Below, piece by piece: positions 10,107 through 23,488 of a stretch of 64,000 bases of DNA (position 1 is its first letter; each line of letters opens with the position of its first letter). The translations under genes and the position numbers were made by a program. The notes beneath the pieces are model-generated. The model was not told where the DNA came from. It did not search any database and saw only the letters and a program-made list of their open reading frames with translations. The stretch covers positions 3,247,501-3,311,500 of the forward strand of contig FP929003.1 in NCBI GenBank assembly GCA_000196815.1, in the 5' to 3' direction. The stretch comes from Nitrospira defluvii. Lineage in GTDB: Bacteria; Nitrospirota; Nitrospiria; Nitrospirales; Nitrospiraceae.

Positions 10107-11141
10107 TTAGGTGGCAGGAACCGTCCGTCGCTCTGCCAATAATCGTTGGCAGGCCTCAATGATGCGCTCCGGAGCAATCTGAAGACACACGCGCTCACGA
10201 CACTCTGCAATGGCGCTCCAACCGCGGCACGTACAGGGCGCTCCAGCGACAATCGACACGGCGCGACCAAGCGGAGCCCAGCGACGCGAATCGGTGGGTC
10301 CGAAACAGGCAATCGTGGGAACCGACAAGGCAGCCGCAAGATGGGTCATACCGGAATCATGTCCCACATAGAGTTCTGCATGCGACAGCACCCCTGCCAC
10401 CGTGGACAAATCCAGCCCACGGATGACCGGAACATCCAGCTTTGCAGTCTCGAGGACGCGCTCCACAGCCTCGCAATCAGCCGGGCCTTCCAGCAATAGG
10501 GGAGCCATGTCAGCCTGAAGTAACGACTCGATCACAGACACGAGAAGCCGTGCATCTAAACACTTATGGGGGCTCCCGCTCCCGGGATGAATCACCACCA
10601 CCTTGTGCCGACTCTCTTGAATGAGTCTCTCAACAATGAGCCTACCGCGTTCACGAATAACTGGTGAGAGAGGGAGTGGAGTGCCGGCTATCTGATGAAT
10701 GTCACTAACCTGAATGGCATCAAGATACCGAGACGCCTGGTGTCCGGTGCACAGGTCGGCAGATGAAGCAGACTTCAGAGAAATAGACCGCACACCCGAG
10801 GCACGCAGTGTAGCCGAGAGGGCCCCCTCAGCGTCCGACAGCCACCCAACCGCAGTATCGCAGTTTCCGAGCCAGGCTCTAAAATCTGAACAAAGACTAT
10901 CTGGCCCAGCCCAAAGCCCAGTCAAATAGGACGATTCAAGAGGGAACACTCGATCAACTTCCCGAGCTTCGCACAAGAGCGCTCCCACGGACTCACCGGC
11001 CAGGAATGCAATCTCATGCTGTGGAAACCGACATCGAACTGCGAATAACCCAGGGCGGGACAAGAGTACATCGCCTATGGCCCCGGGATGAATCACAAGC
11101 ACCCCGCGCCTACTGCCGCCCTGTGGTACCTCGCTCATCAC
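10107..11141 (-). CDS. Glycosyltransferase family 9 (heptosyltransferase-like)
   Basis: 344 residues with the GT-B fold of LPS heptosyltransferases. An N-terminal HPGAIGDVLLSRPGL motif, a central HPGSGSPHKC stretch (donor phosphate binding) and a C-terminal GHDSGMTHLAAAL..ACFGPTDSRRW motif are all characteristic of GT9. Members transfer ADP-heptose or related sugars to the inner core of lipopolysaccharide at the inner face of the cytoplasmic membrane; the exact acceptor cannot be read here. Its start overlaps the mobA stop by four bases (ATGA), so the two are co-translated although functionally unrelated. Confidence 0.85.
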   Translation of the reverse strand: MMSEVPQGGSRRGVLVIHPGAIGDVLLSRPGLFAVRCRFPQHEIAFLAGESVGALLCEAREVDRVFPLESSYLTGLWAGPDSLCSDFRAWLGNCDTAVGWLSDAEGALSATLRASGVRSISLKSASSADLCTGHQASRYLDAIQVSDIHQIAGTPLPLSPVIRERGRLIVERLIQESRHKVVVIHPGSGSPHKCLDARLLVSVIESLLQADMAPLLLEGPADCEAVERVLETAKLDVPVIRGLDLSTVAGVLSHAELYVGHDSGMTHLAAALSVPTIACFGPTDSRRWAPLGRAVSIVAGAPCTCRGWSAIAECRERVCLQIAPERIIEACQRLLAERRTVPAT

Positions 11142-11758
11142 GGTGTATCGGATATCGCCGAATCGGCCAGAGTCAAATCGTCGGGCGTATTGATATTCTG
11201 GAATGAACGAAGACCACCACCAAGAGATGACAGGTCATTCGCTCCGACCACCGCAACTCGTAGTGCTTCCGTTCGATACAGTGCCTGGATCTTCAGATCA
11301 TGACGCTCAGCCATCGCCTTGAGAAATTCGGCGCACCGTTTGGAATACATGGCGTGCATAGGTTGAAACTGTCCCTGGAGTTTCGCAACAACGACATCAG
11401 CCGTGTTATCGAAATAGGCCATGAAGCGAATCACCTCGGGCTCAAGAAACGGCATATCACAGGCTACGGCAAATATCCTCGGCTGAGACGCCGCCAATAG
11501 CCCGGTATACAAACCTCCCAAACTGCCTGCATTCGGAATCACATCATAGACGACTCGGCAGCCACGAACCTCCAGGGAGTCGATGGGTTCAGCCAAGACA
11601 ACAACGGTCTCCACGAAAGTACCCATCAAGAGAGAAAGCGTCCGGTCGAAAACACTCTTCCCACCTACCTTCAGGAAGCGTTTATCACGCCCCATCCGCC
11701 GGCTCTTCCCACCGGCAACGAGGACTCCCGTGGCATTGACTAGGGCGCGCTCACTCAT
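11138..11758 (-). CDS. mobA: Molybdenum cofactor guanylyltransferase
   Basis: 206 residues. The N-terminal nucleotide-binding motif LVAGGKSRRMGRDKRFLKVGG matches the LAGGxSxRMGxDK signature of MobA/IspD-type nucleotidyltransferases, and AVACDMPFLEPEVI is the MobA-type metal-binding loop. It attaches GMP to molybdopterin to make the bis-MGD cofactor, needed by DMSO-reductase-family enzymes such as nitrite oxidoreductase. Nearby is an NxrC-like cytochrome gene, whose family partners such molybdoenzymes. The gene begins just downstream of the terminator of that operon. Confidence 0.88.
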   Translation of the reverse strand: MSERALVNATGVLVAGGKSRRMGRDKRFLKVGGKSVFDRTLSLLMGTFVETVVVLAEPIDSLEVRGCRVVYDVIPNAGSLGGLYTGLLAASQPRIFAVACDMPFLEPEVIRFMAYFDNTADVVVAKLQGQFQPMHAMYSKRCAEFLKAMAERHDLKIQALYRTEALRVAVVGANDLSSLGGGLRSFQNINTPDDLTLADSAISDTP

Positions 11759-11787: not shown

Positions 11788-11822
11788 AAAAAAACGAGGG
11801 GGTGAGTTTCCCCACCCCCTCG
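11788..11822 (-). terminator. Rho-independent terminator of the bd-like oxidase operon
   Basis: On the minus strand a perfect 10-bp stem (CGAGGGGGTG with CACCCCCTCG, arms 11813-11822 and 11795-11804, 8-base loop) is followed directly by seven T residues (11788-11794). It lies 28 bases after the stop of the last cytochrome gene. Confidence 0.93.
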
Positions 11823-11850
11823 CGACACCACCTCTAGCTCGAGTATCGAC

Positions 11851-13635
11851 TTAGAGGACCTTGCCCTTCTTCTTGTTGGCTCGGCGGGTCAGCATCCACC
11901 CTTCCAAAAACACCACGCCAACTGCAATAACCGCTGGGTAAATGTACACTTCCTGCGGAATCGGAGGCTGCAAGATCGTGTAGTAGAAGGCCGACACGGC
12001 CATCTTCCGTCCCGCATCTCCGTTGTGTCCGTCCCAGGCAAAGAAGACCATCGGAATGTACTTACCGATGTCGAATCGCGTGTACTCATCATAATCATCC
12101 TTGTCGCCCTTGAGCGGACGGGAGATCATGACAGTCCACTGCCCGTTCTTCCATTCTGACTTCAACAACTTAACTTTTTCTTCGAAGTCATCGCGTTCTT
12201 CGAAGTCCTGATCCCAACCGGTTCCCTTAAAGGACCGGAGGGAACCGTCCGCCTCCCACTTCAGAATGTCGGCGTTGAACTTCGCATCACCCCACAGGTA
12301 TCGCGGCTTGAACGGAGCAGGAATCTCCTGCCACTTGATGGGGAATTGGAATGCGATACCATCGTTATAAACGGAATAGTTATTCTGAGCAGCAGCAATT
12401 GACCCTTCTTCTCCGGTCTTAGGTGCCTGCTCCTTCACACCAAAGTTCTCAACATTGACTTGAGTGGGTGCCCAAGGAAGTTTCCCCTCGGCAACACTCT
12501 TCGTCCGGTCATCCCACTGGATCAGGTACACCACGTTCTTTTCGTTGTACAGTGACTTGACCCAGATATCATCGATTCGATTGACGAAGTTACGAGGCTT
12601 GTGGGTGATCTGGCCGCCCATCGCCACATAACGACGGCCCTGCTTCTTCCACATCTCATTTTCTGGGTCGTCGGAAATCTCACCCTCGACTGGAGCAGAA
12701 GGAACAACGAAGTTGATCTTCGGCTTGTCGGTCAAAGGATCAATACCAAGAGGCTTACCCTCGGCATCGCGCTCACACAACGAGTTTACGAAGTTCGCGA
12801 TGCTCCAACGGTCTTCTACCGACGTGCTATCCGCGAATGACGGCATTGGCGTCCCGTTTACGCCAGTTGAGAACGTACGGAAAATGTTCCGCACATTATA
12901 GGGGTCTTGACGGCTTCCGCGGAAATTCCAACACTTGTGCCAATCGGCCGGTTGAATTGAAAAGCCCCAGTCATCTTTCAAATTGAAGGCATTCCCATCC
13001 CCACGCCCTTCCACACCATGGCACTCAATACATTTCTTGTCGACAATCAGCTGGGCACCCTTCTTAATGCTCTCTTCAGTCGGCTCAGCAGGTTTGATGG
13101 TGCCAAGTTGAAGAATCGTCTGGGTCTCAGACTGCTTGTCAGTAAACTTTCGATCCTTAACCAACTGGGTCGTGACAAATGACAACACCTGAAGCCGCTG
13201 TTCCTCGGTCAAGATACCTTCCCAAGGTGGCATGGCAGAACCGGGGAGACCATGCGTGACCGTATCGAGCAGGTCATTCTTCCCAGAATCAGGAGTCTTC
13301 TCGTTGTAATTGAACAGGGGCAACTCTCCGCTCGCTGTGTGACGGATTTTAAATGTGCCCTGGTTGAAATTTCTCGGTCGTGGCCACAGACGATCAGCAC
13401 CTGGCCCATCACCAGCACCATCCACGCCGTGACACCAGACGCACTTGGTGAAATAGACACGCTTTCCGGCTTCGATCATCTCGGCTGGCGGAGCCGGCGC
13501 TAACTCGCCCTTGGCAAAGCCTTCCGGAAGATCTCCAGCATGGCCCAGCCCCACCGCAGTTGCGGAAAGGATGAGGGCACCTAAGGCCGCTCCGATAATG
13601 GGCGTCGCCTTTACGTTCATACGAAGTTTGCTCAT
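11851..13635 (-). CDS. Dihaem cytochrome c with ethylbenzene-dehydrogenase-type haem b domain (NxrC-like), membrane-anchored
   Basis: 594 residues when started at ATG 13635, which has a clear AGGT ribosome site and begins a signal peptide; upstream in-frame codons lack one. Two cytochrome c domains carry CVWCH (65-69) and CIECH (202-206). Residues about 320-560 resemble the ethylbenzene dehydrogenase/NxrC/DMSO dehydrogenase gamma family, which binds haem b through Met/Lys-type ligands. A single helix (about 565-585) followed by a basic tail anchors the protein with its haems outside the cell membrane. It is the last gene of the bd-like oxidase operon. This fusion could carry electrons from a periplasmic molybdoenzyme to the oxidase (inference). 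Confidence 0.85.
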   Translation of the reverse strand: MSKLRMNVKATPIIGAALGALILSATAVGLGHAGDLPEGFAKGELAPAPPAEMIEAGKRVYFTKCVWCHGVDGAGDGPGADRLWPRPRNFNQGTFKIRHTASGELPLFNYNEKTPDSGKNDLLDTVTHGLPGSAMPPWEGILTEEQRLQVLSFVTTQLVKDRKFTDKQSETQTILQLGTIKPAEPTEESIKKGAQLIVDKKCIECHGVEGRGDGNAFNLKDDWGFSIQPADWHKCWNFRGSRQDPYNVRNIFRTFSTGVNGTPMPSFADSTSVEDRWSIANFVNSLCERDAEGKPLGIDPLTDKPKINFVVPSAPVEGEISDDPENEMWKKQGRRYVAMGGQITHKPRNFVNRIDDIWVKSLYNEKNVVYLIQWDDRTKSVAEGKLPWAPTQVNVENFGVKEQAPKTGEEGSIAAAQNNYSVYNDGIAFQFPIKWQEIPAPFKPRYLWGDAKFNADILKWEADGSLRSFKGTGWDQDFEERDDFEEKVKLLKSEWKNGQWTVMISRPLKGDKDDYDEYTRFDIGKYIPMVFFAWDGHNGDAGRKMAVSAFYYTILQPPIPQEVYIYPAVIAVGVVFLEGWMLTRRANKKKGKVL

Positions 13636-13682
13636 TGTTAACCTCACCACCTGTTCTCCCAGGTTGTTTGTAAGATTCAGGA

Positions 13683-14720
13683 TTAGTCCCATGTCCGAGG
13701 ATAGTATCCCGTGTGCCAATACTCGAACAGGATCACCTTCCAAATTTCATCCGTTGTCAGGTGCTGTTCCCATGGTGGCATAACCGAGGCCCAAGGGAAT
13801 CCTTCGTTCGGCAAACCGATGCCGCCCTTAGCTACGCGCCAGAAAATGAAGGTTTCCTGCAACTGTGCAATCGTTCCCGGGTCTGTGAAGTTAGCGGGAA
13901 TCGGATTGAACGCAAAGGCGTGGAGACCGCGGCCGTTCAGATTGTCACCGTGACAGAAGTGACAATTCTGGAAGAATATTTCGCCACCTTCCCGAACGTA
14001 CTTCAGATACCCTTCAGCCTTGTCATCCCATGGGTTGGCATTGGGCGCCATCAGTCGTCCCATACCCTGTTCGACGATCAGCTTATTGCTGTATGCCTGG
14101 TCAAACTTCCCCTCGAGATTAACCCGGTAAGGATTCTGTGACGTTTGCAGGGTGTAGGTCTTGCCGTGCACCTTCGTGCTAGCGGGTGGTGCAGGATGCA
14201 CGGTCCGCAACTCAATCGGCTCATCGACACTCGGCTTCATCGTCAGGAATGAGAAGCCGCCGATGAGTAACGGAAGAAGAATCAAGTACATCGTGCGTAG
14301 CGCCTTGTGGAAGCCAGTGTTGGCGTCCAAGACATTGAGAATTGGTTGACGAAACTTCTTCCAATCCTCTTCATTGGCTGACACCCACATAAATACGGCT
14401 ACGAACGATACGGTCCCGTACATCGCACGCACGCTGAATGGAATCGGCGGATAGATACGGAACTTGAGATAGGTTTGGATAAAGGCCCAAAACAACACAC
14501 CCTGCCAAAACCGAGGGAAGGCAACTCCCATCGAGTTGGCCAGATAACTCAGGCCGGTGAAGCCAGCCACGAATACGGCCAGCTCACTTAAGACCTGCAT
14601 GGGCATGTAGCCCTCAACGAGCCTGACGGTGTTCGAGGGAATCACTCCGAAGATCATTCCGATCAACATGAGCAGTCCCAGGACGCCGATCAATGCCCCG
14701 ACTGACATTAATGCTTTCAT
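13683..14720 (-). CDS. Membrane-bound monohaem cytochrome c
   Basis: 345 residues from ATG 14720, chosen because a GGGAG/GAGGA ribosome site precedes it; an upstream in-frame extension to 14768 would overlap the previous gene's end. About four hydrophobic segments lie in the first 160 residues, followed by a periplasmic part with one haem motif CHFCH (253-257). The C-terminal MPPWEQHLTTDEIWKVI sequence is typical of class I cytochromes and supplies a likely methionine ligand. It sits between two other cytochrome genes in the bd-like oxidase operon and is probably a structural subunit of that complex. I do not recognise a specific named family for the membrane part. Confidence 0.8.
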   Translation of the reverse strand: MKALMSVGALIGVLGLLMLIGMIFGVIPSNTVRLVEGYMPMQVLSELAVFVAGFTGLSYLANSMGVAFPRFWQGVLFWAFIQTYLKFRIYPPIPFSVRAMYGTVSFVAVFMWVSANEEDWKKFRQPILNVLDANTGFHKALRTMYLILLPLLIGGFSFLTMKPSVDEPIELRTVHPAPPASTKVHGKTYTLQTSQNPYRVNLEGKFDQAYSNKLIVEQGMGRLMAPNANPWDDKAEGYLKYVREGGEIFFQNCHFCHGDNLNGRGLHAFAFNPIPANFTDPGTIAQLQETFIFWRVAKGGIGLPNEGFPWASVMPPWEQHLTTDEIWKVILFEYWHTGYYPRTWD

Positions 14721-14768
14721 GTCCTCATCTCCCTTTCTTCCGCAATAGCAACCAGATACCCATCGCAA

Positions 14769-16088
14769 CTAGGAGGCTTTTGGTGGCTCTTTCCCCTCCT
14801 GGACCTGCGAGAGGTAATCTACAAGTTTCTTGAGCGCGCCAGCACTAAGCTTTTGACCGAACACCTTAGGCATGGTGTTGTCGGGGAAGCCTTTCACAAC
14901 ATATGCGCTCGGCTCGACGATGGACTCCATAATATAGTCGGGAACGCTCTTGGCTTTCCCTTTGTAGTCCTTGTCCTTGATCCGTAGTGGGGCATTGGTG
15001 CCCTCGACCAATTTCGGACCGATCGTACCAGTCGCGCCAGCAATTCCAGGGATCGTATGGCACGCCACACATTGCCCCTTCGCGAAAATCTGATCGACAG
15101 GCTCTGTCCCGTCCGCCATGAGCGCGGATGCACCACCGCCAGCTGCCTTGTCGCCTTCTGTTGGCGGCTTTGGACGCTCAGAATCCGGGATGAACTTTTC
15201 ATAGGACTTCACAATTTCATCAAAGCTCGGCGCCTCACGCCCTTCACGCACATAGAGCCAGGTGTCGACAGCCGCTAACTCGGGCAAGGACAAAGAGATC
15301 GGCGGCTTATGGATGGATGGCATCGGGCTGACTTTGTCATTGGTACCCTTCACACCGTAACCAGCCACGACGAAACAGCTCGGACAGGCATGGGATTCAG
15401 CAATGTATTCCTGTCCATTTTCAGCCGTTCCAGATCCAGGGAATGCTTCCTTCTGGTCTGAATCACGCGCAGCAGCATTTCCCTTATGATAGCGAGGATC
15501 TTCGATCTGCGTTCCCGCACGCTCTGGCAATCCATCGAGGTTCGGCGCACGCTCGCCCAACATTCCCTTGTGGAAAGCATGGCAGAGTGGACACTGCCCC
15601 TTACCGATCGCTCCCTGAACTTTATTCTGACCAACTCCGCCAAAGATAATCTTCTCGCCTTCGTCGGCAAGCTCCGTCTGGGGCATGTTGCTGAAGTCTT
15701 TCTTTTCTTCGATGGGCGGAAATCCACCTTCCACCTGAGGCAACCAGTTACCGTAACCGGAGAGTGCGGCGGCGATGAAAAACATGAAGCCGCCGATTTT
15801 CAGCAAGGCGCTGATGTTCGTAAAATACAGCGCCATCATGAACGTCATCGATGTAATAAGAACCAGAGACACCGGCAAGAGCCGTGACTCTTCGAAGAAG
15901 TTCATCTTGTAATTGGCGATTGCCATAAAAAGTAGCACCGCGCCAATAATGCCGATGAACGTCTTGAACACCGCACGCTTGTTGGCAACTGGGTCTGAAA
16001 TGGAGGCCTTGAAATAAAACATTAGGCCAACCAGGATGCCTAATGCTGGCCAGCCCATCGCTAAGGCCGCTTTAATGAGTTCAATCAC
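14769..16088 (-). CDS. Membrane cytochrome c with two haem motifs and one degenerate CxxC
   Basis: 439 residues from GTG 16088, preceded by a strong AGGAGGT site. Three to four N-terminal membrane helices (to about 110) precede a periplasmic cytochrome region. CPLCH (166-170) and CVACH (340-344) are complete haem c sites, the latter with KGFPDNTMP providing a likely Met ligand (M406). A third, CPSC followed by F (235-239), lacks the haem-binding histidine, so it is a structural disulphide, a metal site or a lost haem. It lies between the bd-like oxidase gene and another cytochrome gene and is likely part of the same complex, delivering electrons from the periplasm. Confidence 0.82.
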   Translation of the reverse strand: MIELIKAALAMGWPALGILVGLMFYFKASISDPVANKRAVFKTFIGIIGAVLLFMAIANYKMNFFEESRLLPVSLVLITSMTFMMALYFTNISALLKIGGFMFFIAAALSGYGNWLPQVEGGFPPIEEKKDFSNMPQTELADEGEKIIFGGVGQNKVQGAIGKGQCPLCHAFHKGMLGERAPNLDGLPERAGTQIEDPRYHKGNAAARDSDQKEAFPGSGTAENGQEYIAESHACPSCFVVAGYGVKGTNDKVSPMPSIHKPPISLSLPELAAVDTWLYVREGREAPSFDEIVKSYEKFIPDSERPKPPTEGDKAAGGGASALMADGTEPVDQIFAKGQCVACHTIPGIAGATGTIGPKLVEGTNAPLRIKDKDYKGKAKSVPDYIMESIVEPSAYVVKGFPDNTMPKVFGQKLSAGALKKLVDYLSQVQEGKEPPKAS

Positions 16089-16174
16089 AGCTCAAACCTC
16101 CTGCAGGAGGGGAAGGCGCTGGCCACCGATACAGCCAGACACCCTCCCTCATTGATTCATTTCTTGCGTTTTGA

Positions 16175-18094
16175 CTAGTGACCCACTGCCGGCGCAGCCG
16201 CACGACCAGGCACGGCTGCCTTCGCCTCGACTGGCGCTTTCTTAGCACCAAGGGCTCCCAACCAAAACACGAACATAATTGAAATCCAAAAGAACAGTAC
16301 GTTCGCAGAAATCATGTTCGCGGCAAAACCCACCGTGTGAGTATAGGCCCACGGTGAATTGTCACGCATGATTTCGTTGACGTGCCAGAATAAGCGGACA
16401 GAGGACCTGATGTATCCCATCAGACCCATCATCCACGTGAAGGCCGTGGCCAACATGATGAGCGCATATTGAGACCGGGCAGAAATCTTACCCCACTCAA
16501 TCGGTCCCATCTGCTTGGCCCCCTTCATCATGACGCTGTTAAGCGCGAACATGAAGAACAGGCACGACAGCGTGGTAGCCACCTGCGGAACGGACAAGCC
16601 AACCCGTACGTTCGCCGGAATGTAGTAACCGTACACAGCCAACATAATGATGTTGAGATACGCAAAGAAGAAAAAACAGCCCATGAAGATATTGCCGAAC
16701 TTTGACCACGATACCGTGGACACCTTGTTGCCTCGCATGTACCACACGAAGCTCAAGACCGTGGTCGTAATGATGACGTTGATCCCACCGTTTTTGGCTG
16801 ACATCACGCCATAGTTACCCAGCACTGGATGCTGCTGGCCACCCATTGCTTTCAGTTCGGCGGGAGTCATAACGATGGTATGGGGCGTAATAAACACCAG
16901 ATATCCGCATGTAAGCAGGAACACAAGATACTTGATGTAGCGCTGATATTTTTCCGCACCCCGCATCCGTCCGAGAGCTTGCCAAAGATAGTAATTCGTG
17001 CTCAAGAACAGAATTCCAATCATGGTGGCCTGAATGATGAACAACCAAGCCAACAAGCCGCCCATCAAGGTAATGCCCATCTGCTGCCGATAGGCATAGA
17101 CTTCGCGCATCAGCCAGTATCCGGCGAACGGCAACGGAATCAAGAACGCGACGCCGAGAGCCATGGCGATGTAACCCATCCAATCGTAATGGGCGCGCTC
17201 CTCATCGGTCTTAGCCGACAAGAAACGATAGGCGGCATAGGCTGCCACGACGCCACCACCGAAGGCCATGTTGCCAAGAATACGATGGAGATTGAGCGGG
17301 TTCCACAACGCGGTGTGGATCACGTGCCAGATGTTACCAAGATACCGGCCTTGCTCATCAACGCCGGCCGGAGACATCATGAAACCGATCCATGAATTCG
17401 CCAGGAACATCAAGATTGTACCGATGACGTTCAGGACGACCGACATGCTGAGGTGAATCCACTTCAGGAATCCCTCCTTCATCTTGTCCCAGCCGTAGTA
17501 GTAGATGTAGAGGGTTCCGCTTTCGGCCACGAACATCAATGCATAGATATGCATGACCGGCCTAAAGATACCCGAGAGATACTGGAAGAAGGCCGGATAG
17601 AGAGTCAGGAATGTAAAGATCAGAATTCCGCCCAAAATGGCCGTCAGAGAGTACGCCGTCAGACTGATCTTAATAAAGTCATAGGCCAACTGATCATAGC
17701 GCTTGGCCATAGCCTTATCCTTGGTCACGACTCCCATAAATTCGATGACCATACAGAAAATGGGAACAGCCAAAACGAAGCTGCCATAATAAAGGTGCTG
17801 CTGATTGGCAAACCAGAGCAGGACGCGACTTTCAAAGTTGTATCGCGGGTAGTCCTTCTCGCTGTCCGTCGTCTTAGGAGCCGGTGGGCCCGAGACAATA
17901 CCTTCCGTCTTGTAATAAACGTCCTTACCCTTCTCAACCTTTGCGTCACCACCCTCTTTTTTCACGCCGGCAGCGGGAGCGCCACCGTCGCTAGCAAGGG
18001 CAGGGATCGCAACCAGAATAGGCAAGAGGAGGAGGCCGATCATCGCGCCAAGCGCCATGATCGACATCAACTTCGTGCGGGTTACAGAGCCCAT
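16175..18094 (-). CDS. Cytochrome bd-like terminal oxidase subunit
   Basis: 639 residues with a signal-like first helix, a roughly 50-residue periplasmic stretch and about 13-14 membrane helices. It is distantly related to CydA but lacks the canonical quinol-loop and GRQPW signatures. It corresponds to the unusual bd-like oxidase proposed as terminal oxidase of Nitrospira (from memory). Candidate haem, metal or proton residues in helices are H100 (in QQHLYYG), H182, E191, H214, H257, H260, H270 (NLHR), E331, H405 (TPHT) and H422 (QQHP). It has an AAGGAGG ribosome site. It is preceded by two small membrane-protein genes and followed by three cytochrome c genes, which suggests a complex that takes electrons from cytochrome c rather than quinol. 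Confidence 0.85.
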   Translation of the reverse strand: MGSVTRTKLMSIMALGAMIGLLLLPILVAIPALASDGGAPAAGVKKEGGDAKVEKGKDVYYKTEGIVSGPPAPKTTDSEKDYPRYNFESRVLLWFANQQHLYYGSFVLAVPIFCMVIEFMGVVTKDKAMAKRYDQLAYDFIKISLTAYSLTAILGGILIFTFLTLYPAFFQYLSGIFRPVMHIYALMFVAESGTLYIYYYGWDKMKEGFLKWIHLSMSVVLNVIGTILMFLANSWIGFMMSPAGVDEQGRYLGNIWHVIHTALWNPLNLHRILGNMAFGGGVVAAYAAYRFLSAKTDEERAHYDWMGYIAMALGVAFLIPLPFAGYWLMREVYAYRQQMGITLMGGLLAWLFIIQATMIGILFLSTNYYLWQALGRMRGAEKYQRYIKYLVFLLTCGYLVFITPHTIVMTPAELKAMGGQQHPVLGNYGVMSAKNGGINVIITTTVLSFVWYMRGNKVSTVSWSKFGNIFMGCFFFFAYLNIIMLAVYGYYIPANVRVGLSVPQVATTLSCLFFMFALNSVMMKGAKQMGPIEWGKISARSQYALIMLATAFTWMMGLMGYIRSSVRLFWHVNEIMRDNSPWAYTHTVGFAANMISANVLFFWISIMFVFWLGALGAKKAPVEAKAAVPGRAAAPAVGH

Positions 18095-18156
18095 GGGTTA
18101 CCTCCTTGATACATCGCGTATGTGAACAACAAGCTCAAAGCGCTACCTCCGAATGA

Positions 18157-18279
18157 TTACTTTCGAAGGAGATACCAAAAGTCCAAACCTTGCGCATCCA
18201 TCAGAAAATGATCGACCGCTGCAAAAAACGAGACGCAGATCACCACAGAGACGACGACATACACAATTGTTTGGCCCAT
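18157..18279 (-). CDS. Small single-helix membrane protein, candidate oxidase subunit
   Basis: A 40-residue protein starting at ATG 18279 behind a GAGGGGGG ribosome site. It has one hydrophobic helix (about residues 5-27: IVYVVVSVVICVSFFAAV) and a short tail ending FWYLLRK. It lies about 60 bases before the bd-like oxidase gene and is read in the same direction. Tiny single-helix subunits such as CydX and CcoQ are standard in terminal oxidases, so this is a plausible structural subunit. No sequence family is recognised. Confidence 0.7.
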   Translation of the reverse strand: MGQTIVYVVVSVVICVSFFAAVDHFLMDAQGLDFWYLLRK

Positions 18280-18329
18280 CTCAAACCCCCCTCAACTTGG
18301 TAAACAATCTTCCAGGTCAGAATACCGGA

Positions 18330-18446
18330 TCAGCAAGGGCACTGAATCCCGCCGAACCAGTAAAAAAACCAAAGGCTCACTGCCAGGGTGATGTAGAAAA
18401 TCATTTTGCCGATCTTAATCTGGACGTCATCCTGAGCAGCTTCCAT
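18330..18446 (-). CDS. Small single-helix membrane protein, candidate oxidase subunit
   Basis: A 38-residue protein from ATG 18446 with a GGGAG ribosome site. A short charged N terminus (EAAQDDVQIKIGK) is followed by a helix (about 15-34) with several aromatics and a C-terminal CPC motif. It is the first gene of the bd-like oxidase operon; the next small gene begins 50 bases on. The terminal Cys-x-Cys could bind metal or form a disulphide on the far side of the membrane (inference). No family is recognised. Confidence 0.7.
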   Translation of the reverse strand: MEAAQDDVQIKIGKMIFYITLAVSLWFFYWFGGIQCPC

Positions 18447-18547: not shown

Positions 18548-18652
18548 ATGGCTAAAAATTCAAAAGTGTTCGACATTATAGTTTTGGCTGGAATGGTTGT
18601 CAATATCATTTTGGCCGTGTTTCTGATCCTCTACTACTTCGATTTCCTGTGA
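18548..18652 (+). CDS. Divergent 34-residue membrane protein
   Basis: ATG 18548 to TGA 18652. A basic N terminus (MAKNSK) is followed by one hydrophobic helix (about 8-31) ending in YYFDFL. A weak AAAGGGA ribosome site lies before the start. It is transcribed away from the oxidase operon and its 3' end overlaps the convergent FGE-domain gene by 47 bases. Charge distribution and helix length look genuine for a small membrane subunit, but coding status is unproven and no homologue is recognised. Confidence 0.5.
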   Translation: MAKNSKVFDIIVLAGMVVNIILAVFLILYYFDFL

Positions 18653-19559
18653 TTTTCTCCGGCCCCACGCCCCCAGACGACCGGCCATTTTCTGCACTGG
18701 ATTGAGCGCAACGAAAGCCGATTGTTTCATCCCGAAAATCCTGCATCATCTTGCTGCGCGCGGTAATGCGTAAATCAGAGCCCGAACTGGTATACGCAGC
18801 CCCGCGCAGCACTTTATAGGTTCCGTACTCAGGACTTTCAGGATTCCGCTCTGAAGCCGCAGCATACGCCCCCTCAAGGTACCAATCGTTCACCCATTCC
18901 ATCACATTGCCCGCACCGTCCATGACACCATAGGGACTGGCGTCACTCTTCACACGCCCCACCGGCGCCGCCACGTCAAACCCATCGTCCACGCGAGCCC
19001 AATTCGCCGCGTTCGGCACTTCCACGTTTCCCCACGGCCATAGGCGACCATCAGGCCCGCGCATGGCCTTCTCCCACTCCGCCTCGGAGGGCAACCGCCT
19101 TCCGCGCCACTCGCAGTAGGCTTTCGCATCCTCCCAGGAGACATAGACGGCCGGCTGATTCACGCCTCGCATACGCAGCGTATTTTTCGCATACCGTGAG
19201 GGCGGTCCTGACTTTCGATGTCCCGTTGCCTTCACAAACGCGGCATACTGCGCGTTCGTCACCTCGTAACGATCAATCAGAAACTGGTCGAGGTAAATCG
19301 TCCGCTCGGGCTGCTCGTCGAACCCGCCCCGATTGGTCCCGAACACAAACGGCCCCGCAGGAATCACAACGAGCTCCTCTTCAAGGGGTTCTTCAGCGGA
19401 GGCCGGCTCAGGATTAGAGCCCCCCTGATTCTGCTCGGCCGATTGAGGCTCAGCTTCGAACGGGGTGGATATCGTCCCGCGAAGAATCGCGATGATGGGT
19501 AAGCTGGCGGCAAACAACACCACCAGAAGGAAGATCACTTTGAATCGCGTTTCGAGCAT
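18606..19559 (-). CDS. Membrane-anchored formylglycine-generating-enzyme-type (SUMF1) domain protein
   Basis: 317 residues: an N-terminal helix (about 7-27), a linker rich in E, S and P, then an FGE-sulfatase domain (about 65-285). Landmarks are PAGPFVFGTNRGG, YVSWEDAKAYCEWRGRRLPSEAEWEKAMRG, GVMDGAGNVMEWVNDWY, VLRGAAYTS and IGFRCAQ. True FGEs use Cys/Cu to oxidise a sulfatase cysteine; many relatives are structural or have other roles, and no sulfatase is seen here. The C-terminal 35 residues are polar and low complexity. It is the last gene of the train that includes a second FGE protein and the bd-like paralogue. Confidence 0.85.
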   Translation of the reverse strand: MLETRFKVIFLLVVLFAASLPIIAILRGTISTPFEAEPQSAEQNQGGSNPEPASAEEPLEEELVVIPAGPFVFGTNRGGFDEQPERTIYLDQFLIDRYEVTNAQYAAFVKATGHRKSGPPSRYAKNTLRMRGVNQPAVYVSWEDAKAYCEWRGRRLPSEAEWEKAMRGPDGRLWPWGNVEVPNAANWARVDDGFDVAAPVGRVKSDASPYGVMDGAGNVMEWVNDWYLEGAYAAASERNPESPEYGTYKVLRGAAYTSSGSDLRITARSKMMQDFRDETIGFRCAQSSAENGRSSGGVGPEKITGNRSSRGSETRPK

Positions 19560-19570
19560 GATGCAACCGA

Positions 19571-20485
19571 CTACTTAACGACCACATCAGCCTCGATATC
19601 TTTGGCACAGCGAAAGCCAACCGTTATGTCATGCCGCCACGGCTTTGCCTGGAATCGCTTTGACGCACGCACGTTTCGCTTGGTCTCCCGCCAGGAACCG
19701 CCACGAATAACACGCTGCTCGCCCTGGTCAGGCCCCTTTGGGTCACGATACGGAGAGCCCCGATACGAATTTTCGTCGTAAACATCCGCGACCCATTCAC
19801 CGACGTTGCCCGTCATATCGTAGATTCCGTAGGGACTGCGTCCCGACTCGAACGACCCCGGCGGAGCGAGGTAGCGAAACCCATCCTCATTTCCATCGAT
19901 GTTCGCGTAGCCCACCACGAACTCCTCACCCCAGGCGTAGCGTCGCTTCCCCTCTCCGCGAGCGGCTTTCTCCCACTCCGCTTCCGTCGGTAACCTCTTC
20001 CCGGCCCATTTGCAATAAGCCTCTGCATCGTCCCACGTCACGGCAATCATCGGATATTCCGGCTTCAGTAATTTGGCAGGGTCCTCTTCGAACACTTCGA
20101 TCTTTCGCTTGATTCGCTTCGTCATCCTGGCAAAGCGATCATAGGCATCCTGCGTGACCTCATGCCTATCCAGAAAATACGATTTCAAGTAGACCTGATG
20201 CTCCGGCTTTTCATCCGGATCACTATCGTTGTCCCGACTGCCCATCACAAACGGCCCCTCAGAAACTTGCACCATGTCACGGCCGTCATCGCCGACAAGC
20301 GTCTTATACATCGAGAAGTCCTGCGCGGCGGCCGCGGCAACCGGCTTGACCTCCGTGGTGATCGACAGTGCCAGTTGCCGCATCTGCTTGGCCTTATAGG
20401 ATTCGTAGACCAAGCCACCAATCATCAGGATAAACGATCCGAACACAAAGATAATCGACCCGATCAATACACCCCTGTTTTCCAT
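19571..20485 (-). CDS. Membrane-anchored formylglycine-generating-enzyme-type domain protein (second copy)
   Basis: 304 residues with an N-terminal membrane helix (about 6-29), a short linker, and an FGE-sulfatase domain (about 70-300). Landmarks are SEGPFVMGSRDND, KSYFLDRHEVTQDAYDRF, AVTWDDAEAYCKWAGKRLPTEAEWEKAARG, IYDMTGNVGEWVADVY, VIRGGSWRE and VGFRCAKD. It is a tandem relative of the next gene (11-base gap). Both are anchored with the domain outside the cytoplasm. The pairing with electron-transfer genes suggests a periplasmic complex role rather than sulfatase activation (inference). Confidence 0.87.
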   Translation of the reverse strand: MENRGVLIGSIIFVFGSFILMIGGLVYESYKAKQMRQLALSITTEVKPVAAAAAQDFSMYKTLVGDDGRDMVQVSEGPFVMGSRDNDSDPDEKPEHQVYLKSYFLDRHEVTQDAYDRFARMTKRIKRKIEVFEEDPAKLLKPEYPMIAVTWDDAEAYCKWAGKRLPTEAEWEKAARGEGKRRYAWGEEFVVGYANIDGNEDGFRYLAPPGSFESGRSPYGIYDMTGNVGEWVADVYDENSYRGSPYRDPKGPDQGEQRVIRGGSWRETKRNVRASKRFQAKPWRHDITVGFRCAKDIEADVVVK

Positions 20486-21622: not shown

Positions 21623-23488
21623 TTATGCCTCATGAGACGGAGACGGCAGAAAGCCTGCCTCCTTCTCCGCACTCACATCTTCATGCATCACCGGCTGCTG
21701 CCCGCGCTGACAGACCCAGAACAGGAAAAATACCGCCCCCCAAAACAGGACCATGTTGATCGTGACCATTTTGGCAGCGAATCCAAGCGATGGCGTAAAC
21801 GCCCAGGGAGACGTATCCGGCATCAACTCGTTGACATGCCAGGCCAACCGTCCGGAAGAGCGGATGTACCCCATCAACCCCATCACCCAGGTAAATGCCG
21901 CAGCCAATCCGAATAGGCCGACCATGCCGCGGACCGAAATCTGCCCCCATTGCACAGGACCGTGAATCATGGCACCTCGCAACATGCGCCGGTTCAGCAA
22001 CAGGCCCAGCGTGACCACGAGCAACGTGGTGACGGCCTGCGGACCTGACAGCCCGACGCGGAGACTGGCGGGAAGATAAAATCCATAGACCGACAAACCG
22101 ATGATGTGCGCCGCTCCGAGGCCGAACAGGGCCCCGAGGATGACATTCCCTGCTTTAGCCCAGGAGATCGTCATGGTTCGATTTGCGCGTCGATAAAAGA
22201 TGTAACTCAAGGCGGTGATGCAAATCATCACGTTGACCGCGCCGTTCTTCGACGACATGACGCCGTAGTTTCCGATGACCGGATGCTGCGCCCCGCCCAT
22301 GGCTTTCACCTCTGTCCCGGTCATCAAAATAGTATGAGGCGTCAGCCAGATAAACAGACAACCCGTCAGCGCGAGCAGCAAATATTGATAGTAGGGCTGA
22401 TAGCGCTCACCGCCGCGAATCCGCCCCATGCTCTGCCAGAGATAGTAATTCACCCCGAGAAAAAGGGCGCCGATCAACAACGCCTGCACTACGAAGAGCC
22501 AGGTCAGCAGCCCGCCCATCATCGTGACGCCCATGCTTTGACTATACGCATAGACGGAACGCATCAGCCAATAACCGGCGAACGGCATCGGCAAGAGGGC
22601 ACAGACGGTTACAAACAAGAACACGTAGCCGACCCAATCGTAATAGGCCCGCTCTTCCTGACTCTTGCCGGAAAAAAACCGATAACAGGCATAGGCCAGG
22701 ACGACCGCCCCACCCGACATGATGTCTGCAAGGAATCGATGCAAGTTCAACGGATTCCAGAGTGCCGAGCGGAGCAGATGCCAGGGATTCCCCAAATACC
22801 GTCCCTGGCCGTCGACGCCGGACGGCGCCATCATGAAGGCGGACCAAGCGTTGGCCAATAACAACAGCGATGTGCCGAACACCACCGCCAGCACACCGAT
22901 CGACAGGTGGACCCACTTCGATCCCGGGGCTGCCATCCGATCCCAACTGTAGTAGTACGCAATCGTCAGAAACGTCGTGCCGACAAACACCAGTGCATAG
23001 AGGGGCATCATGACCTTGAAGGTGCCGCCCATGTACTGCATGAAGCTGGGATACAGGGTGATAAACATCGTGAGCATCACGCTCCCGACCGCCGCGGTCA
23101 CAGACAGTGCCAGCAGCGCCACCTTCAACAGATCTTGCGCCAACCCGTCATAACGCAAGGCCATCGCGGGATTTTTCGCAACCAACCCCAGAAATTCCAA
23201 GAGGACGCAAAAGATCGGCAAGGCTAGAACGAAACCACCGAAGTACGTATGCTGCTGAATGATAAACCACATCAGCAACCGGCTATCGAGTGACCCGACT
23301 TGCGGGTAGTGGTTCTCATTCGCCGTCGGCGCCGAGGGACCGTCCGGAACCCCGGGCGTATGGAAATAGACATCTGCGGAGGGGTCGGCAGCCACCAGCA
23401 ACGATGGACTCAGCAGCAGAACACTCACGGCCACCAGCAACCCGCATAACAACAGCATCACGGACGGAAGCGGAAGGCGTTTGATCAT
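21623..23488 (-). CDS. Second cytochrome bd-like protein, lacking several candidate ligand residues
   Basis: 621 residues, clearly paralogous over its whole length to the 639-residue bd-like oxidase, with the same helices and shared motifs (QQHxYxGxFVLAxPIF, GVDxQGRYLGN, NPLNLHR, TPHTI, KAMGGxQHPVxGNYGVMS, WHVNE). H80, H194, H237, H250, H385 and H402 are kept. However, the positions matching H182, E191, H260 and E331 of the oxidase are P162, T171, R240 and S311. It is therefore probably not an equivalent oxygen reductase; an electron-transfer or scaffold role is possible. The start overlaps the upstream membrane-protein gene by four bases (ATGA). Confidence 0.8.
   Translation of the reverse strand: MIKRLPLPSVMLLLCGLLVAVSVLLLSPSLLVAADPSADVYFHTPGVPDGPSAPTANENHYPQVGSLDSRLLMWFIIQQHTYFGGFVLALPIFCVLLEFLGLVAKNPAMALRYDGLAQDLLKVALLALSVTAAVGSVMLTMFITLYPSFMQYMGGTFKVMMPLYALVFVGTTFLTIAYYYSWDRMAAPGSKWVHLSIGVLAVVFGTSLLLLANAWSAFMMAPSGVDGQGRYLGNPWHLLRSALWNPLNLHRFLADIMSGGAVVLAYACYRFFSGKSQEERAYYDWVGYVFLFVTVCALLPMPFAGYWLMRSVYAYSQSMGVTMMGGLLTWLFVVQALLIGALFLGVNYYLWQSMGRIRGGERYQPYYQYLLLALTGCLFIWLTPHTILMTGTEVKAMGGAQHPVIGNYGVMSSKNGAVNVMICITALSYIFYRRANRTMTISWAKAGNVILGALFGLGAAHIIGLSVYGFYLPASLRVGLSGPQAVTTLLVVTLGLLLNRRMLRGAMIHGPVQWGQISVRGMVGLFGLAAAFTWVMGLMGYIRSSGRLAWHVNELMPDTSPWAFTPSLGFAAKMVTINMVLFWGAVFFLFWVCQRGQQPVMHEDVSAEKEAGFLPSPSHEA

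Follow-up and report, generated by a model that had tools for sequence, protein, structure and literature searches.

Gene content and boundaries of the operon

Six genes run in one direction on the minus strand from position 18446 to 11851 of the window, the 64,000-nucleotide stretch of Nitrospira defluvii DNA that we analysed. Two of them specify single-helix microproteins, one a bd-like protein, and the remaining three membrane cytochromes. The microprotein genes come first: smA (18330..18446) specifies 38 amino acids with a C-terminal CPC, and smB (18157..18279) specifies 40 amino acids with a QGLDFWYLLRK-type end. The bd-like protein (16175..18094; 639 amino acids) is of the bd-like_3 type and is predicted to have a CydA fold with extra helices replacing the Q-loop. 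It is followed by diC (14769..16088), which has a GTG start and encodes a membrane-anchored diheme cytochrome c with a cytochrome c domain, by monoC (13683..14720), which encodes a membrane-anchored monoheme cytochrome c, and by altNxrC (about 11851..13635), in which a diheme cytochrome c is fused to an NxrC-like EB_dh domain and a C-terminal helix. The starts assigned to monoC and altNxrC by the ORF caller are too early, and conserved start codons were used instead; with these starts (14720 and ~13635), the overlap between the two genes disappears. No CydB gene was found within the operon.

A strong intrinsic terminator, composed of a 13-bp GC-rich hairpin and a T-run, lies past altNxrC on the same strand (11794..11823); among relatives, 71 of 75 likewise have a terminator after altNxrC. 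The first-pass annotation had described six co-directional genes with a single clear terminator, and the coordinates, the hairpin at 11823-11794, and the Pfam domains (Cyt_bd_oxida_I, cytochrome c, and EB_dh, all above gathering scores) bear this out. Its count of five complete haem c sites was also correct: there are exactly five CXXCH motifs, distributed as two in diC, one in monoC, and two in altNxrC. Nearly every Nitrospira locus on a contig long enough to cover it shows the same arrangement, smA-smB-bd-diC-monoC-altNxrC. Other Nitrospirota retain bd-diC-monoC-altNxrC, and the f25-f27 families have bd-diC-monoC.

Several neighboring genes lie on the same strand. A MobA-like gene (11138-11758) sits directly past the operon terminator and fits molybdenum cofactor supply for nitrite oxidoreductase (NXR) in the region. 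Upstream lies bd-like_4 (21623..23488), a paralogue of bd-like_3 (54% identical) and its possible partner. In the small Nitrospira group represented here and by locus L043, bd-like_4 has Thr at the position equivalent to CydA Glu107, a residue that nearly all relatives retain; the change may have altered or abolished its function. Between bd-like_4 and the operon (18606-20485) are two FGE-sulfatase (SUMF1-like) genes in tandem.

Microproteins and a promoter within a coding sequence

A third microprotein gene, smC (18548..18652, plus strand), is divergent from the operon and encodes a 34-amino-acid single-helix protein. The operon promoter (18575..18603, minus strand) lies within its coding sequence and is a perfect TTGACA-N17-TATAAT, matching the consensus at 12 of 12 positions; only 0.002 perfect matches would be expected by chance in 14 kb. 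It is present in 107 of 110 loci. Conservation of smC is similarly broad (105 of 110 loci), and a Shine-Dalgarno-like site precedes the gene in 96 of these 105. Outside the promoter, changes from codon 8 onward are nearly all synonymous: positions 26 and 34 use six Leu codons, and each of the three stop codons occurs. Within the promoter hexamers, the wobble bases of smC are invariant, while those downstream are variable (mean minor-allele frequency 0.205). For the two microprotein genes inside the operon, pN and pS are 0.058 versus 0.776 (smA) and 0.134 versus 0.811 (smB). These substitution patterns indicate that smA, smB, and smC are all under purifying selection. The new detail at this locus is a set of three tiny conserved membrane proteins beside the operon, one of whose genes (smC) houses the operon promoter. 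A predicted transcription start near 18568 would place the operon leader antisense to the start region of smC.

Small open reading frames resembling smA and smB also occur upstream of the bd gene in deep Nitrospirota loci, and in three loci (L126-L128) a smC-like frame is the first gene, co-directional with the operon. Position and short motifs suggest that these microproteins are homologous to those of Nitrospira. Tandem small open reading frames are absent from the loci of bd paralogues. The microproteins matter for purification, as constructs lacking smA, smB, or smC could destabilize the complex.

The bd-like protein and its cytochromes

The bd-like protein matches PF01654 (Cyt_bd_oxida_I) with 71.8 bits against a cut-off of 26.2. 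Superposed on CydA chains, its AlphaFold model (pLDDT 84.5) scores Z 31-35 across 338-356 residues (3.3-3.6 Å), well above background and above the matches to ActC/F of alternative complex III (ACIII; Z 20-22) and polysulfide reductase (Z 14.5). In the model, the Q-loop region is occupied by helices instead; these inserted helices (346-531) match ba3 oxidase at Z 6-7, which is background level.

Residue equivalences were taken from a profile-profile alignment to CydA (E 6e-14), as MAFFT by itself misaligns portions of CydA's second half. In E. coli CydA, His19 is a haem ligand, and Lys252 and Glu257 are quinol residues. Haem-ligand roles in the same protein have been described for His186, Met393, Glu99, and Glu445 (PMC6853902). 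The bd-like protein keeps His19 (H100), His186 (H270), and Glu107 (E191), and the Arg and Trp of GRQPW correspond to R567 and W570. Both haem-ligand Glu residues are lost (Glu99 is Y184, Glu445 is S565), as are the quinol-binding positions (Lys252 is M339, Glu257 is M344). Across the family, H214, H270, H571, R271, R563, and R567 are invariant, and Y184 and H100 are nearly so. At two further positions, Q421 and F569 stand where a NIDE0901-like paralogue has His447 and His596. This is exactly the variant published for the cluster in Nitrospinae, Nitrospirae, and anammox bacteria, in which Gln and Phe replace two proposed cofactor His residues (PMC8026999).

Given that the quinol loop and the equivalents of Glu99 and Glu445 are missing and that the Gln/Phe variant is present, cytochrome c rather than quinol appears to be the better reading for the electron donor of the bd-like protein. 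A CydA-type domain and fold combined with loss of the quinol-binding site would place it in the OR-N branch, whose members have been classed as putative cytochrome c-oxidizing O2 reductases (PMC12342949, PMC10839748); no purified OR-N enzyme is reported in the papers cited here. The type proposed for NIDE0901, a haem-copper-like bd oxidase, would have a full His set for CuB and a high-spin haem, and Gln421 and Phe569 set the present protein apart from it. In our tree, the bd-like_3 clade largely tracks taxonomy, bd-like_4 forms its sister clade, and the NIDE0901-like protein lies apart.

Turning to the cytochromes, a fold search with monoC related its haem domain to ActE and c552 cytochromes; the match list was filled by this cytochrome domain, and the N-terminal helices were barely covered. 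In diC, residues 235-238 form a third Cys pair without His (CPSC, in the contexts CPSCF and CPSCY), which is conserved across Nitrospiria and not deeper. It is possibly a lost haem site or a metal site. In two deep Nitrospirota genomes (loci L129 and L130), a single gene encodes monoC and altNxrC as one triheme polypeptide of about 750-765 amino acids, a fusion that supports physical association of the two products.

The EB_dh domain of altNxrC scores 48.4 bits against a cut-off of 33.3, and its profile matches NXR-C (7b04_C) and EbdC (2ivf_C). The TIGR03477 cut-off is missed by altNxrC and also by the NxrC-like genes of the same genome, and hence says nothing for or against altNxrC. In Kuenenia NXR-C, haem b is ligated by Met155 and Lys305 (PMC8387239). 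Counting residues in the profile alignment, with numbering from the ORF start at 13743, Met155 corresponds to W484 and Lys305 to K580 in altNxrC. The Lys is present in 20 of 23 family members, and the Met column is varied among the 23 sequences (five Trp, nine Phe, five His, three Met, and one Asp); an NxrC-like protein from the same genome retains the Met. Since the Lys ligand is kept but the Met ligand is missing, binding of haem b by the NxrC-like domain of altNxrC is doubtful. Of the ethylbenzene-dehydrogenase-type haem domain claimed in the first-pass annotation, the domain thus stands, and the haem is not secure.

Occurrence and proposed role of the complex

The locus and the electron-donor idea are already published, and earlier work reports the cluster from Nitrospira, Nitrospina, and anammox bacteria. 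In N. moscoviensis, bd-like_3 is grouped with alt_NxrC_2 and a pair of membrane cytochromes c, bd-like_4 lies close by, and the genes of the cluster rank within the top 40 by transcription (PMC6606698). This locus (L069 in our set) has the same genes in the same order and represents the same system, except that the small open reading frames are not mentioned in the text of that paper. The Nitrospinae/anammox cluster, compared here from literature descriptions, shares the Gln and Phe substitutions, two cytochromes c, and a membrane alt-NxrC (PMC8026999, PMC3578206). One of its cytochromes is triheme according to PMC8026999, and the Q-loop is missing from its bd-like protein (PMC3578206).

Our new evidence, drawn from genome sequences, is that the complex would also occur in relatives without the nitrite-oxidizing enzyme. 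With N. defluvii NxrA as query (threshold E 1e-20), nxrA went undetected in nine operon-bearing Nitrospiria genomes outside Nitrospirales (94-99% complete); an assembly gap is possible in any single genome, but all nine agree. TIGR03479 had been considered as an NXR marker and was too broad, matching 50 of 50 genomes. Eight of the nine nxrA-negative genomes carry the full bd-diC-monoC-altNxrC set, and in the ninth (G183) the bd gene is the last one before the contig end. Within Nitrospirales, the operon does co-occur with NxrA. Because nine Nitrospiria genomes have the operon without detectable nxrA, the operon appears not to be tied to NXR. A bd-like terminal-oxidase cluster, TO_1, has been described in Nitrospiria lacking nitrification genes, Ca. 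Manganitrophaceae/Troglogloeales (PMC9040806), and is probably the same operon.

One of the nine genomes, G129, has no haem-copper oxidase and no PF01654 protein besides that of the operon, making the operon the only oxygen-reductase candidate found there. No match to superoxide dismutase was obtained in G129, nor in the genome of the window, which belongs to an aerobic genus, and this enzyme is thus uninformative as a marker of aerobic life for G129. The genome of the window likewise contains no haem-copper oxidase. How electrons travel from nitrite to oxygen in Nitrospira without such an enzyme is a long-standing open question, for which this operon is one of few candidates. Its presence in relatives without detectable NXR, one of them with no other oxygen-reductase gene detected, means that an oxidase role can be examined separately from nitrite oxidation.

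We propose that the operon encodes a cytochrome c-linked OR-N membrane complex, in which c haems would take electrons from periplasmic cytochrome c and hand them on to b haems within the CydA fold, with reduction of O2; we give this reading roughly even credence. The electron source would be a periplasmic c-type cytochrome, supplied in Nitrospira ultimately by nitrite oxidation. Electrons would enter through the diheme cytochrome/NxrC-like protein altNxrC together with the anchored diC and monoC, and would then reach the b haems of the CydA-fold subunit, the most likely, putative site of O2 reduction. The two or three microproteins would serve as small structural subunits, like CydX and CydH in cytochrome bd. 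We infer complex formation, the direction of electron flow, O2 as the acceptor, and the subunit role of the microproteins. A complex fed by periplasmic cytochrome c rather than quinol had been predicted at first pass, and the conserved operon, the quinol-site loss, a layout pointing to c-haem input from the periplasm, and the monoC-altNxrC fusion agree with it; reduction of O2 stays putative, and haem b in the NxrC-like domain doubtful.

Evidence for the oxidase reading includes a conserved Nitrospirota operon with its own promoter and terminator, the CydA fold, the quinol-site loss, and G129. Against it stand the loss of the two Glu residues that ligate the active-site haems in canonical enzymes and the replacement of two proposed cofactor His residues by Gln421 and Phe569. 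The cluster is also reported in strictly anaerobic anammox bacteria (PMC3578206, PMC8026999), an occurrence that weighs against an obligatory oxidase role, whereas the G129 genome weighs in its favor.

The anammox occurrence also agrees with reverse electron transport, proposed for the cluster in PMC6606698 and PMC3578206, in which proton motive force would drive nitrite-derived electrons from cytochrome c into the quinone pool by way of the bd-like protein, feeding CO2 fixation. A separate NIDE0901-type operon is the favored terminal oxidase, and structural similarity extends, at lower Z (14-22), to the quinone-reactive ActC/NrfD proteins. However, the known quinol-binding residues are absent from the bd-like protein, and in G129 the operon is the sole oxygen-reductase candidate found; we consider this direction of flow a serious but rather unlikely explanation. 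The same two papers suggest that altNxrC is an alternative gamma subunit docking periplasmic NXR at the membrane. The profile matches to NXR-C and EbdC point this way, as do NxrC-like genes 18-24 kb off on the same strand and the mobA gene adjoining the operon. Such an anchor is improbable given the nine genomes without an nxrA match, the replacement of the Met haem ligand by W484 here and by varied residues elsewhere, and expression of alt_nxrC_2 4-fold below nxrC (PMC6606698). A canonical quinol-oxidizing cytochrome bd (qOR) with accessory cytochromes would account for the PF01654 domain and CydA fold, but it is ruled out for practical purposes by Y184, S565, M339, and M344 at the E99, E445, K252, and E257 equivalents in the profile alignment, by the missing Q-loop, and by an operon without a CydB gene.

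Returning to the cytochrome c-linked complex, we tentatively extend it to a joint picture, itself somewhat on the speculative side, in which it would contain three overlooked single-helix subunits phylum-wide, the smC-antisense leader of Nitrospira would tie subunit supply to operon transcription, and the whole would be a general cytochrome c oxidase predating its use in nitrite oxidation. Canonical cytochrome bd with CydX/CydH has in common with it the CydA fold and small single-helix companions. Unlike that enzyme, the system described here lacks CydB and a quinol loop, and it has additional helices and c-type cytochrome subunits.

The same genome also encodes a putative terminal oxidase of the NIDE0901 type (OR-N2) with a paralogous arrangement of bd-like, diC-like, monoC-like, and EB_dh proteins. 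It differs in having His at the Gln421 and Phe569 positions, no upstream microproteins that we could find, and an EB_dh protein unfused to cytochrome c. Some Nitrospirales carry second bd-like_3 copies (L134, L144, and L145; 76-80% identical) without adjoining microproteins or cytochromes. Genome G117 (L135, 7186-12265) has a second OR-N pair with Phe at the Glu107 equivalent and with a monoC-like protein that has lost its CXXCH; this pair is apparently degenerate or repurposed.
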